Part shown: in pieces, positions 1 to 57,323 of the stretch | Layout of the letters: each line of letters opens with the position of its first letter | How positions within the stretch are numbered: the stretch's first letter is position 1 | Assembly (NCBI GenBank): GCA_025917655.1 | Contig: CP084620.1 | Location: 930,001-994,000, forward strand | Reading direction: 5' to 3' | Source: Chlorella sorokiniana | Taxonomy: Eukaryota; Chlorophyta; Trebouxiophyceae; Chlorellales; Chlorellaceae | Length of the DNA: 64,000 nt | Notes under the pieces: generated by a model | The model's database searches: none | What the model saw: only the letters and a program-made list of their open reading frames with translations | What the model was told of the DNA's origin: nothing | Made by a program: the position numbers and the translations under genes

Positions 1-2969
1 CAACATGATGCTGTTCAATTCCGACGGCGTCATCCACAAGTACGCCAGCCCCGAGGACATCCTGCGCGACTTCTTCGACCTCCGCCTCGCCTTCTACACC
101 AAGCGCCGCTCCGCGCTGCTGCGGGTGGGCGCCGCCAGCAGGCCGACACCGCTGGGCTCCCCCTGCAGCCTGCTGGCCTGCACGGCCCTGTCTCTGCGCC
201 GTCGCACTGCATCGCGCCCACAAGCCTGGACTCACCGCCCGCATCTGTGCCTTGCCTGCCCTCTCCCCTCCCCGGCCCACCACCCCAGGCCGCAGAGGCC
301 GACCTGCTGCGCATCTCCAACAAGGTGCGCTTCATCCTGGCGGTCGTGGCGGGCCAGCTGAAGCTCAGCAACCGGCGCAAGGCGGAGGTGGAGGGGGAGC
401 TGGAGGATGAGGGCTACGACAGGCTGCCCTCCCTGAAGAAGGCGCAGGCGCAGGTTGGCGGCACGCTGGGGCCTGCAGCAGGACAACTGCATTGCACCTC
501 TTGCTTTTGAAAGTATGGAGGAGCAGCCAGTGCCCATCACTTGTGAGCCGGGAGCCTGACGGGCGCTTGCAACGCGTCCTGGCTGCTCGCAGGCTGCTGC
601 CGAGGAGGTTGAGGAGGGCGAGGGCGCCGCCGCCTCCTACGACTACCTGCTCTCCATGCCGCTGTCCAGCCTCACCCTGGAGAAGGTGCAGGCGCTGCAG
701 AGCGAGGCGGAGGAGTGGAAGGCGGCGGTGGAGCGGCTGCGGGGCACCACCGAAGGACATGTGGCGCGCCGACCTGGACGCCTTTGAGGGGGTGGGCGGC
801 GGCGGAAAGGAAACAGCAGGCCCCACCAGGGCCTGCGCTCGCTGGCTGGATTGCCTGGTGCAAAGTGCTGGGCTGGAGGGGTCATGCACTTGCTGGGGGC
901 TGCGGTGCAGCTTCAGAGCCAGGGTGTTCGTTCCAACCGCGCCCATCCAGCAAGACGAGAAGCGCCCATGTTGATTAACTGTGCCCACCCCGCCTGCTCT
1001 GCCCCCGCAGGCCTTGGACCAGTTTGAGGAGGCGGAGGCGCGGAAGGACTCCCAGCTGGAGCGGCAGCAGGCGCGGGCCAAGAAGGCACAGAATGCGGCG
1101 GCCAAGAAGGCGGCGGGCAAGGGCAAGGGCAAGCGCAACCAGTGGAGCGACGAGAGCGAGGAGGAGCTGTCGGACAGCGAGGGTGGGCTGGGGCTGGGGC
1201 AGCAGCGGCAGCTGCAGAGGAGCGAGAATCCATTTGCATGGGCATGTGGCTGGCAATGCTGCTGCGTGGTTGTTTCAACTGTGTTCCCTGTTGTTCCCTG
1301 CCGTTTGCCTGCCTGAAGACGAGGACGACCACTTTGATGCGTACCGGCAGCCCAAGAAGGCGGCGGCACCCCGCCAGCGCGCCCCTGCTGCGGCCCGTGC
1401 CGCCGCGCCGCCCCCTCTGGCACATCCAGCATGCAGGTCAGCCAGCAGACGGGGCCTGCAGCAGGTGGCAGCAAGAAGGCTGTCGCAGCGCGGAAACCTG
1501 CCGTGGCCAAGCCTGCAGCCAGGACCAAGGCGGCAGCAAGCCGGCCGGTGAGCGAGGACGAAGAGGAGGAGCGGCCAGCAGCAGCAAAGCCCAAGGCTGC
1601 AGCGCCGCCGCCACCGCCGGAGGAGGAGCTGAGCCTGATGGCACGCCTGGCAGGCCGCATGGGCAAGCTAGGCCTGAGCCCTGCCGGGCGGCTGCGGCAG
1701 CTGCTGCTGCTCCTGCCCCTTCGGGCAGCCGCGGCGCGGTGGCCGCGGGCGGGGGGCGCGCGACCGGGCCGGGCCGCTGCGGCGGCGGCGGCCAAGAAAA
1801 CCGCCAAGGTGGTGGTGGTGAGTGACGACAGCGATGAGAGCGAGGAGGAGTCCGAGGAAGAGGAGTCTGAGCTGGAGCTGAGCGACAGCGACGATGAGGT
1901 GGGTGTGTTGGGTGGGGGGCCGGAGAGGGTCGGGGTGCTGTGTGGGCGGGCCAGGACCCCCAGCCTGGAGGCCGCCTCGCCGTGCACCGGCAGCAGGGGT
2001 GAGCAGCCGCCTTTGCACGACCGCCTGCAGATCAGCAGCCCCGCGCCCAAGCCCGAGCCCAAGAAGCGCAGCAAGCCGGAGCCCAAGAAGAGCCTGGCCG
2101 CCAAGGTGCGGGGGTCGCAGCAAGCTGCCCGCGGCTTGTCGAACGCAGAATCCGCGGCTGGAGTCAGCACGTACAAGCTCCTTGCCCGTGTGCTCACGCC
2201 CTGCGCCCACCGACCCTCATGCCACAGGCCATGGCCAACAGCAAGGCGGTGGAAGCCAGCAGCTACGACTACGACCTGGCCGACGACGACGAGGCTGCCT
2301 CCCCAGCCCCAGCGCCCAAGGCCAAGGTGGGCGGGCGCAGGGCAGCCTGGCGGCAGGGCCATAGCGCAGGAGGACAGGCCTGCGTCAGCCCGCGTGAGGC
2401 GGTGTGTGCATGTGGCAGGCCGGCTGGCCGGCAGGGCCCACCACATCCCTGCCCGGAACCACCCCGCCTGCTGCGGTCAAGGAGGCATCGCCTGCACCGC
2501 TGCATAGCGGCGCCGCTGAGCCGCAACCCTCTGCCTGCAGGTCCAGCGCATGCGGCCCAGCCCATTCAACAAGAACTCGGGCAAGCCCAAAGGCGGCGGC
2601 GGCCGGCCGACCGCCCAGCAACCTGGGCAACAGGGCGCCGGCGCCCGCGGCGGGCGGCAAGGGCAAGAAGGCGGCGGTGGTGGAGGACTCGGAGGTGAGC
2701 ACAGGCCCTGCAGGCTGGCTGTGCACACCGGCCCCACCTGCATTGGCACACCAGGTGTTCCTCAGCTTCGCCCCCACCTGTCCGCCTGCCCCGCTCAGGA
2801 TGAGGAGGAGATTCAGGACATGAGCATCAGCCCGGCGCCGGCGCGCCAGGTGGCGCCACGGCGCGTGGGCGCTGCCAAGGCTGCCCCCAAGTACAAGGAG
2901 GACAGCGACAGCGAGGAGGCAGAGAGCGAGAGCGAGGACGAGGCGTCCGACTACGCGCCGTCTGACTGA
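1..2969 (+). CDS. TOP2: DNA topoisomerase II, C-terminal part (5' end outside window)
   Basis: Type II topoisomerase passes one DNA duplex through another in the nucleus. The window opens inside the coding sequence: the first exon reads NMMLFNSDGVIHKY then DILRDFFDLRLAFY, the conserved end of the breakage-rejoining core. Later exons give RISNKVRFILAVVAGQL (about 307-360), YDYLLSMPLSSLT (about 637-680) and DMWRADLDAFE (about 757-790), in the order known for eukaryotic TOP2. From about 1012 the protein becomes a charged tail alternating Lys/Ala-rich and Ser/Asp/Glu-rich blocks (e.g. DSDSEEAESESEDEASDYA), the usual divergent C-terminal regulatory domain, ending at TGA 2967-2969. At least eight introns are present. 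The frame breaks near 755 (TTE|KDMW), probably a consensus error. Identification is firm; exon borders in the tail are uncertain. Confidence 0.92.
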
Positions 2970-55639: not shown

Positions 55640-55644
55640 AAAAA
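55640..55644 (-). terminator. RNA polymerase III oligo-T terminator of the permuted tRNA
   Basis: Five A on the plus strand, so TTTTT on the minus strand, eight bases after the end of the tRNA 5' half. A second TTT follows. Its place after the 5' half, not after the T arm, supports transcription of the permuted order. Confidence 0.75.
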
Positions 55645-55652
55645 GATCTACA

Positions 55653-55737
55653 TAGAAGTCACACGCCTTATCCACTAGGCCAAGAGGGCAACAGACACAA
55701 ACGCCCCCTCTGGGATTCGAACCCAGGATCTTGTGAT
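55653..55737 (-). tRNA. Circularly permuted tRNA-Arg (anticodon UCU)
   Basis: On the minus strand the 3' half comes first (55737-55702): A38, anticodon stem TCACA, variable AGATC, T stem CTGGG, loop TTCGAAT, CCCAG, acceptor AGGGGGC and discriminator G73. A 12-base spacer (55701-55690) follows. Then the 5' half (55689-55653): acceptor GCCCTCT, TG, D stem GCCT, loop AGTGGATA, AGGC, G26, anticodon stem TGTGA and CTTCTA. Joining base 37 to base 38 gives the loop CTTCTAA and a 73-nt cloverleaf. The acceptor is 7/7 paired (one G-T), the D stem 4/4, the anticodon stem 5/5 and the T stem 5/5. The B box (GGTTCGAATCC, 55723-55713) lies upstream of the A box (TGGCCTAGTGG, 55682-55672). The junction is the normal tRNA intron site. 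TGTA just after the 5' half (55652-55649) can pair with TACA in the leader (55746-55743), a relaxed splicing helix. Confidence 0.93.
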
Positions 55738-56140
55738 AGCACTGTAATCTGGTCCGACCAGCATAGCCTCAGGCAGAAGCGAGGAGGAAGCCATGAAATT
55801 ACCGTATATAAAGCAGAACCACGGTTTTTGGCCTACAAAAAAATGCGGTACAAAACTGCAATACTGTCTGTCCCCAGCGCGCTACCTTGTCTGCTCTCTG
55901 TAACAGTCAATGCGCCAAGTCAATGCGGCTTTGTCAAGTCAAGTCATGCGGCTTTGTACCGTACCAGAGCAAGAAGGATGCCTGGTACGTGTCCCCCATG
56001 CGTTGCCGCGCATGGGTCTCTGCAAGAGCATCAGCAGGACCAGTACTTTCGGCGAGCAGCCATGCATCTGCTTCTACTCTTGTGGGCATGAGCGCATGCT
56101 GTCATATGAACGTGCTGCACGTGCATTTGCCAGAAAATCT
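55738..56140. other. Upstream region of the tRNA and GST 3' region
   Basis: About 400 bases. It contains the TATA-like element described separately and a short repeated phrase (ttgtcaagtc / aagtcatgcg, near 55930-55955). No coding feature was recognised. Confidence 0.45.
55805..55810 (-). promoter_or_regulatory. TATA-like element upstream of the permuted tRNA
   Basis: TATATA (within cgtatataaa on the plus strand) lies about 68 bases upstream of the first tRNA base on the minus strand, in an otherwise GC-rich area. Plant and algal tRNA genes often have A/T-rich upstream elements. The distance is rather long, so this is only suggestive. Confidence 0.3.
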
Positions 56141-57323
56141 CTAGGGCTGATTCAGTAAGGCAGCGTTGTGTGGGTGCAGCTGGAAGCAGCCAAACGTCTC
56201 ATAATCAAAGAAATCCAGGCTGCGATGTTGGCGGTACGCTTGCAGCAGAGCGGCGCTGCTGGCGGCGCTGGTGCGGCACGAAGGCCGAGCATCCATGGCT
56301 GCCAGCCAGCGCCCGATGCTGCCGCCCAGCGCTGCGCTGACATCGTATCGTGTCAGCGGCGCGGCCACATCAAAGCGCTTCATGAACGGGTAAACCACGA
56401 TGTCTGCCAGGCTGGGCTGCGAACCCAGCAGGTACGGGCCGCCGTGACGCTCCAGCGAGGCGTGCAGCCCGCGCAGGTGCTCCTCAAAGCTGGCGCGCTG
56501 CGCCGCCGTCTGCCCGCTGCCAATGCCCCAGCTGCGCGCAGTGCTGCCTGCGCCGGGGCAGCAGGCTTGGCAAGGTGAGCTGTGGAAGGTGCGTGTCATA
56601 CCCTGGAGTGTTTGCTGCAGCTTTGCTGCAGGGAAAAGCTCTCCCTGAAGCAGCAACCACAGGGCGGGCCTGCCATGCATGCAGCCCAGCCCTGGCCTGG
56701 CATCCCACCCCTGGCCCACCTGACATCAAATCCAGCCCAGATGACACCACGCCGCTGCACGGCCCCCGCAGCAGCGCCTCCATCTCCTGCTGAAGGCCCG
56801 GCTCAGCGGGCGTGAGGCTAGGCCCTGCCGCCGCCGCGTCCAGGTAGCGGCAGATGTCGGCAGACTCGGTGTGCACCCGGCCGGCGTGCCGCAGCGCGGG
56901 CACCAGCCCCCGCGGGTTCACCCGACCGTACCAGGCGGGCTTGCGGGACAGGTCCACGTGCACCAACCGGTGCGGCACGCCCTTCTCTAGCAAGGTGATC
57001 CACACGCGCTCAGCATACTGCGGCACAGGAAAGGCCGACGAGCAGATGTGAGATTCGGCTGCACCCGCGCCGCAGAAGCCGAGCAAGCCAGTACGCTCAC
57101 CGGACAGAGCGTGTGCGTGTAGAAAACTGTTCCCTGCATAGTGTGCAAGTGGTCTCGTAAAACTAAACGTCTGGTGGCAAGGCACTGGCCCCCTCGCGCA
57201 CTGCACCTGCCCGCTGGGTGGTGCCGCCATGTCCGCCGCCTCTTCTGCTGTGCACAGGGCGGCCGCATCGTGATAAGCGGCGCAGCCTTCCGGGATGGCT
57301 GATGAATCGATGCGACGGGGCAT
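56141..57323 (-). CDS. Cys-type glutathione S-transferase (omega/lambda/DHAR-like)
   Basis: Likely a thiol transferase or dehydroascorbate-reductase-type GST. A 33-base exon (57133-57101) encodes GTVFYTHTLCP, and the next exon continues YAERVWITLLEKGVPHRL. This places the catalytic Cys in LCPYAERV, as in Cys-GSTs. Then VDLSRKPAWYGRVNPRGLVP (cis-Pro), HTESADICRYLD (glutathione gamma-Glu site), SFEEHLRGLHASLERHGGPY, LLGSQPSLADIVVYPFMKRF and GGSIGRWLAAMDARPSCRTS, ending HNAALLNQP at 56141-56143. The exon before the 33-base exon ends MAAPPSGQ at 57207, in phase. The start may be ATG 57230 (MAAPPSGQ) or, as given here, 57323 (MPRRIDSSAIPEGCAAYHDA). No clear transit peptide, so a cytosolic site is likely. 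Confidence 0.82.

Follow-up and report, generated by a model that had tools for sequence, protein, structure and literature searches.

The 64-kb window, the whole stretch of DNA analysed here, contains two tRNA-like segments in swapped order, which raises the question of whether they make up one functional gene and, if so, whether the genome holds any other source of the tRNA that it would encode. The gene lies on the minus strand, an orientation absent from the initial annotation. Read on that strand, the 3' half of tRNA-Arg(UCU) comes first (positions 38-73; 55702..55737, 36 nt) and comprises the 3' strand of the anticodon stem, the variable loop, the T arm, the 3' strand of the acceptor and the discriminator G73. 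Next comes a 12-nt spacer without TTTT (55690..55701), which would become the acceptor loop of the proposed circular intermediate, and then the 5' half (positions 1-37; 55653..55689, 37 nt) with the 5' strand of the acceptor, the D arm, the 5' strand of the anticodon stem and CUUCUA of the anticodon loop. This arrangement, with the 3' half before the 5' half on one strand and a short spacer between them, is the type II layout of permuted tRNA genes, and it bears out the swapped halves and 12-nt spacer first proposed for the locus.

Rejoining the halves at 37/38 gave a 73-mer in which 21 of 21 pairs form, one of them a wobble (U5-G68). The minimum-free-energy fold of this joined sequence is exactly the cloverleaf, with loop CUUCUAA and anticodon UCU, in agreement with the perfect 73-nt tRNA-Arg(UCU) that had been predicted. 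Consensus bases are also kept (U8, A14, G15, C48, G18G19, U33, A37, UUC54-56, A58, C61 and G73). The B box (GGTTCGAATCC, 55713..55723, minus strand) stands upstream of the A box region (TGGCCTAGTGG, starting at position 8; 55672..55682, minus strand), and a TTTTT run resembling an RNA polymerase III (Pol III) terminator (55640..55644, minus strand) starts after an 8-nt trailer, so that the coordinates confirm both the inverted promoter boxes and the oligo-T terminator of the initial annotation.

The window belongs to a 38.8-Mb assembly of 15 contigs. One of these, C15 (118 kb), has frames that from reading them we take to be rbcL-, atpA- and atpB-like, and another, C14 (77 kb), has frames of mitochondrial type that, likewise by reading, are presumably atpA- and cox2-like. 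The plastid-type and mitochondrial-type frames indicate that the genome is that of a plastid-bearing alga, and the permuted tRNA-Arg(UCU) gene sits in its nuclear genome. Our guess is that the alga is a green one of trebouxiophyte-like type. Two tRNA splicing endonuclease (tRNA_int_endo) domains are encoded in the genome, on C1 and C9, and the nuclear loci examined contain 35 distinct ordinary tRNA genes, five of them with introns (ARAGORN calls made locus by locus, excluding a repeat-borne call in L077). Together the two domains and the five intron-bearing nuclear tRNAs indicate that tRNA splicing is presumably in use.

The two halves meet at the canonical intron position, and the initial annotation had argued that ordinary tRNA splicing endonuclease could open the junction. 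The leader strand of the junction (AGATTACAGTGCT, 55738..55750, minus strand) runs up to A38, in front of which the splice site is proposed, and the trailer strand (TGTAGATCT, 55644..55652, minus strand) follows the 5' half. For a cut at 37/38, the register that we scored sets positions 32-35 against leader positions -3 to -6, and trailer positions +2 to +5 against leader positions -7 to -10. In Arg(UCU), six of eight positions pair (2/4 in the central helix and 4/4 in the outer helix between leader and trailer), which is a relaxed bulge-helix-bulge. The same register gave 7/8 pairs in Ser, 6/8 in Ile and 4/8 in Thr, the companion permuted genes described below. Pooling the four isoacceptors gave 23 of 32 pairs, compared with a mean of 12.5 for random flanks drawn from the window (p 0.00015, 20,000 draws) and 13.4 for their own flanks shuffled (p 0.0004); the register was fixed on Arg(UCU) first, so the Arg share of this pooled test is not independent, and the count is 17/24 without it. 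C32 faces a G at -3 in three of the four genes including Arg(UCU), Thr being the exception, and this is what we take to be the anticodon-intron pair of eukaryotic endonuclease substrates. Folding of the whole pre-tRNA was no better than that of shuffled sequences (z -0.26, with 72 of 200 shuffles as good). The flanks of the gene are thus consistent with cleavage at 37/38 in a relaxed bulge-helix-bulge.

These features suggest the following pathway. RNA polymerase III, for which the signals are present, would transcribe the whole unit, from the leader through the 3' half, the spacer and the 5' half to the trailer, and stop at the T-run. Pairing of the leader with the trailer beside the anticodon stem, as read from their sequences, would create the relaxed bulge-helix-bulge, and tRNA splicing endonuclease would cut before A38 and after A37. 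By the pathway of Cyanidioschyzon merolae and green algae, tRNA ligase would then join A37 to A38 to give an 85-nt circle, from which RNase P and tRNase Z would excise the 12-nt spacer; after CCA addition, the tRNA would read AGA codons. The Arg(UCU) RNA must therefore probably be closed into a circle and then re-cut before it can be used.

We also asked whether the genome has a conventional tRNA-Arg(UCU) gene, as the permuted locus had been suggested as possibly the only source of this isoacceptor. Pattern and DNA searches of the genome, none of them exhaustive, found no such gene. A DNA search with the joined 73-mer returned only its own two halves, at a sensitivity too low to report the similar Arg(CCG). 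The 17-nt D-arm sequence GGCCTAGTGGATAAGGC occurs elsewhere, with up to two mismatches, only in Arg(CCG) and Arg(ACG). Exact matches to AGATYNNNGGTTCGA were found at 53 places, namely Arg(UCU), Arg(CCG), Arg(ACG) and 50 places where it appears as AGAT[CT]GTGGGTTCGA; 47 of its 64 one-mismatch places were listed and few of them looked at. The 50 places were considered as Arg 3' halves and rejected, as the copies checked belong to a repeat. An Arg(CCU)-type D arm with at most one mismatch was present in Arg(CCU) and at seven other places, none of which ARAGORN called as a tRNA (100 of 215 matches were listed, and those with at most one mismatch were checked, plus L106). The uninterrupted anticodon arm GACTTCTAA occurs at 17 places, 14 of them nuclear, and none of the 14 is a tRNA according to ARAGORN or Rfam. 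No Arg(UCU) was among 19 nuclear matches to RF00005; that search covered 63 of 450 candidates, and two tRNA-Val genes that ARAGORN calls in L003 escaped it.

Among the loci examined, Arg(ACG), Arg(CCG) and Arg(CCU) genes each occur once and are non-permuted. A further locus (L106 115-218), labelled by ARAGORN as an intron-bearing tRNA-SeC, reads by eye as a non-permuted tRNA-Arg(UCG) with its intron at 37/38. No Arg anticodon found other than UCU reads AGA, and for this reason the permuted gene is probably indispensable. In the one glutathione S-transferase (GST) exon checked, AGA is used zero times and AGG twice; since AGA is absent from this exon, demand for tRNA-Arg(UCU) may be low. From these searches, the permuted locus is most likely the only nuclear Arg(UCU) gene. 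They could have overlooked a diverged Arg(UCU) gene, or one that has an intron and a different stem. Within these partial searches, the original suggestion that the locus may be the only source of this isoacceptor is supported, short of proof.

The same observations bear on whether the locus is a gene at all. It could instead be an unexpressed relic, either a tRNA pseudogene that has been rearranged or what recombination left of a tandem pair as two fragments; incomplete tRNA-like pieces do occur in this genome (L064 and L086). We consider such an origin very unlikely, because the locus shows no decay, with every pair and the tested consensus bases intact in both halves, its flanks suit a splice junction, the 5' half is closely followed by the T-run, and the partial searches found no intact copy that could have spared the permuted gene. 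Separate transcription of the halves followed by joining in trans, as in archaeal split tRNAs and with no circle, would start from halves that are indeed separate blocks and would yield the same mature RNA. This route seems less likely still, as the halves are only 12 nt apart with no TTTT between them and a T-run behind the 5' half, and pairing between leader and trailer is possible within a single transcript.

Standard tools gave no call at this locus. ARAGORN run on the whole 64-kb window called no tRNA, and Rfam at gathering score found no match there, a silence that is expected because the gene is permuted. As both programs missed it here, the tRNA counts of related genomes may also be too low. 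For an independent test, we built a covariance model (R2) from seven further nuclear tRNAs that this genome encodes, permuted in silico at 37/38 with N spacers and with the Arg(UCU) gene excluded. R2 scored tRNA-Arg(UCU) at 75.8 bits (E 3.3e-23, a rough value given the short calibration) and had no other match in the window up to E 5. An earlier model, R1, had included the Arg(UCU) gene itself, so its score of 92.9 bits was circular and it was replaced by R2. A rule-based permuted-tRNA finder likewise gave one match in the window, with none in the reverse or the complement of the window; reversed loci totalling 453,398 strand-bases also gave none. That unrelated sequence resembles a tRNA here by chance, in favour of which we found no point, is extremely unlikely given this E-value from a model lacking the gene and the empty reversed controls.

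Run on the same loci read forwards, the finder returned 12 rows, corresponding to five distinct permuted genes and two false matches on the plastid contig C15. The false matches were read as two neighbouring ordinary tRNAs (L004) and as AT-rich noise (L017). A further candidate, in L105 (score 17, spacer 114), was set aside as a chance match. The other permuted genes were found in a partial survey with B-box patterns, and their number is a lower bound. Pattern GGTTCGANTCC occurs at 140 places, and 56 of the 100 matches listed fell in the loci examined; GGTTCAANTCC occurs at 54 places, 42 of them nuclear, and 27 of these were covered; all 12 places of GGTTCGAGCCC and all nine of GGTTCGATCCC were covered.

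The companion genes encode three other isoacceptors. Permuted Ser(AGA) is present in two copies, each with a 36-nt spacer and a 37/38 junction (1479-1595 of both L061 and L062, in gene orientation; C3 near 925,354 and 933,144). The copies are part of an inverted repeat whose arms extend over at least 918 bp with 99.6% identity. Permuted Thr(CGU) has a 28-nt spacer (L093 286-386, plus strand; C6 near 2,288,599), and permuted Ile(UAU) has a 10-nt spacer (L089 115-32, minus strand; C10 near 1,771,260). R2 scored Thr(CGU) at 68.9 bits, Ile(UAU) at 61.6 and the class II Ser(AGA) at 31.3. R1 had given 32.7 bits to two ordinary mitochondrial tRNAs that are neighbours in L001, about as high as the 33.2 bits of permuted Ser(AGA), so the model score alone does not carry the Ser(AGA) assignment; its parse does, with 5 pairs in the T arm, 7 in the acceptor, 3 in the D arm and 5 in the anticodon arm. 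In Ile(UAU), a cut at 37/38 leaves G37, and moving both cuts back by one base would give A37 and the loop CUUAUAA, so the true junction of this gene may be 36/37. At least four isoacceptors thus have permuted genes in this genome, which adds a plastid-bearing alga to the genomes known to carry them.

Taken together, the independent covariance model, the companion permuted genes, the bulge-helix-bulge-like flanks, the T-run and the endonuclease domains support reading the locus as a permuted tRNA-Arg(UCU) split at 37/38. We are highly confident, on the strength of these sequence features, that it is a functional nuclear gene for tRNA-Arg(UCU), circularly permuted as type II with its junction at 37/38 and probably present in a single copy. 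As a separate observation, L109 (~160-265, plus strand; C5 near 1,703,206; score 19) has a T arm and 3' acceptor strand, then 14 nt, then a fully Watson-Crick 5' acceptor strand and a long T-run, all without a normal D or anticodon arm; it may be a pseudogene, or a tRNA gene permuted at a different junction.

With the A and B boxes swapped, how such genes are transcribed becomes a question in itself. Terminator-like signals are uniform, as TTTT starts 8, 5, 5, 6 and 2 nt behind the 5' half in the five permuted genes (2-8 nt in 5/5), compared with a background of 0.8% of 12-nt stretches of the window, and TTTT is found in none of the four distinct spacers. Upstream, TATA-like hexamers are scarce in the window (30 in 128,000 strand-bases). 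When the region 70-120 bp upstream of the B box is considered, ten of the 35 ordinary genes show a TATA-like box, at distances of 85-107 bp: 85-88 bp for Arg(CCG), Arg(ACG), Val(AAC) and one Glu(CUC), 85-97 bp for one Asp(GUC) and 97 bp for the other, 90 bp for Leu(GAG), 94-100 bp for Ser(GCU), 106 bp for Ala(CGC) and 107 bp for an intron-bearing His. Of the remaining ordinary genes, 3/35 have only a farther box (142-157 bp) and 22/35 have none within 110 bp upstream of the gene.

When 150 bp upstream of the permuted genes were scanned, similar TATA-to-B-box distances appeared in three of them: 87/89 bp for Arg(UCU), 88 bp for Ser copy 1 and 95/97 bp for Thr. The box of Arg(UCU) is TTTATATA (55805..55812, minus strand), 75/73 bp upstream of A38. 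No TATA-like box at this spacing was found at the other two of the five permuted genes, as Ser copy 2 has none and Ile has one only at 161 bp. Measured from the first base of the gene, the box lies at -66 to -83 in the three permuted genes versus about -28 to -55 in the ten ordinary ones; being kept at the B-box distance places it about 30-40 bp farther from the 5' edge of a permuted gene. Where present, the TATA-like box therefore seems, from these three genes, to follow the B box and not the gene edge or the A box.

A review of permuted genes holds that TFIIIC is ill served by A and B boxes in exchanged order, and that a TATA-like sequence farther upstream may act instead (Soma 2014, PMC3978253). 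By the same source, most permuted genes of C. merolae have a TATA-like box no more than 50 bp ahead of the 3' half, compared with 66-83 bp here where seen, and the Arg(UCU) box at -75 is beyond that range. A full-text literature search on permuted tRNA together with TATA, B box and TFIIIC found nothing beyond this review. The spacing in the three genes suggests that TFIIIC would read the B box at its usual distance from the upstream TATA-like box, with the A box out of place. We therefore raise, tentatively and as the less probable case, that the permuted genes here are TFIIIC-dependent, with the box at normal B-box distance and the misplaced A box dispensable. The spacing makes the open question of permuted-gene transcription directly testable and, if the idea is true and Arg(UCU) is sole-copy, an essential isoacceptor would need both a B-box-only promoter and an RNA circle for its supply.

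Auxenochlorella, a trebouxiophyte green alga, offers one comparison. Permuted tRNAs with swapped halves, as here, were found in Auxenochlorella UTEX 250-A because tRNAscan-SE gave an incomplete set (Plant Cell 2025 koaf259, PMC12636532; preprint PMC12633428). According to the initial annotation, such genes are known from Cyanidioschyzon, prasinophyte algae and nucleomorphs; the review tabulates 34 permuted tRNA genes with spacers of 1 to 74 bp (Soma 2014, PMC3978253). Its Table 1 includes a permuted Arg(TCT) of Ostreococcus tauri, a nuclear algal gene of the same isoacceptor, also type II with a 37/38 junction, whose intervening sequence is 11 bp versus 12 here (PMC3978253). That table lists no permuted Arg for O. 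lucimarinus, M. pusilla or M. sp. RCC299, and the permuted Arg of C. merolae is an Arg(CCT) of type IV (PMC3978253).

Other features of C. merolae in the review match those seen here, namely the 3' half placed first, a T-stretch after the 5' half, a bulge-helix-bulge at the junction and a permuted Thr(CGT), although C. merolae also has junctions at 20/21, 50/51 and 59/60 (PMC3978253). In the published entries, Ser(AGA) is permuted in M. pusilla and in two chlorarachniophyte nucleomorphs, as here at 37/38, and the nucleomorphs also have a permuted Ser(CGA) (PMC3978253, PMC4494063); unlike those Ser(AGA) genes, the one here is present as two copies in an inverted repeat. Judged by title, none of the other papers listed in our literature searches deals with permuted tRNA genes in such green algae. 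The kind of gene, and even its isoacceptor, is thus already known, and what is new is this member, its companions, the case for indispensability and the promoter-spacing lead.

Several minor observations accompany these results. L081 288-393 is called by ARAGORN as an intron-bearing tRNA-Ile(UAU), and by eye it is perhaps rather Leu(UAA). The block TTAAATAAGGAGCTGGACCGTCTGCGACGCC... adjoins a tRNA gene in L082, L085 and L089 and is possibly an unannotated Pol III RNA; it is not a known non-coding RNA by Rfam at gathering score in these three loci, and Rfam up to E 5 on L085 and L089 gave only weak sub-threshold matches for it. The repeat met in the 3'-half search has a T-arm-like block, AGAT[CT]GTGGGTTCGATTCCCATCACGGGA, with copies often ~270 bp apart; it is found mainly at 2.29-2.36 Mb of C4 and on at least ten other contigs (for example L077 1440-1530), and our guess is that it is centromere-like or retroelement-related. 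Pfam found no match in four of the 12 window ORFs of at least 420 aa. A fifth frame, beside the permuted tRNA gene, is an exon with a GST C-terminal domain (56141-56725, minus strand).
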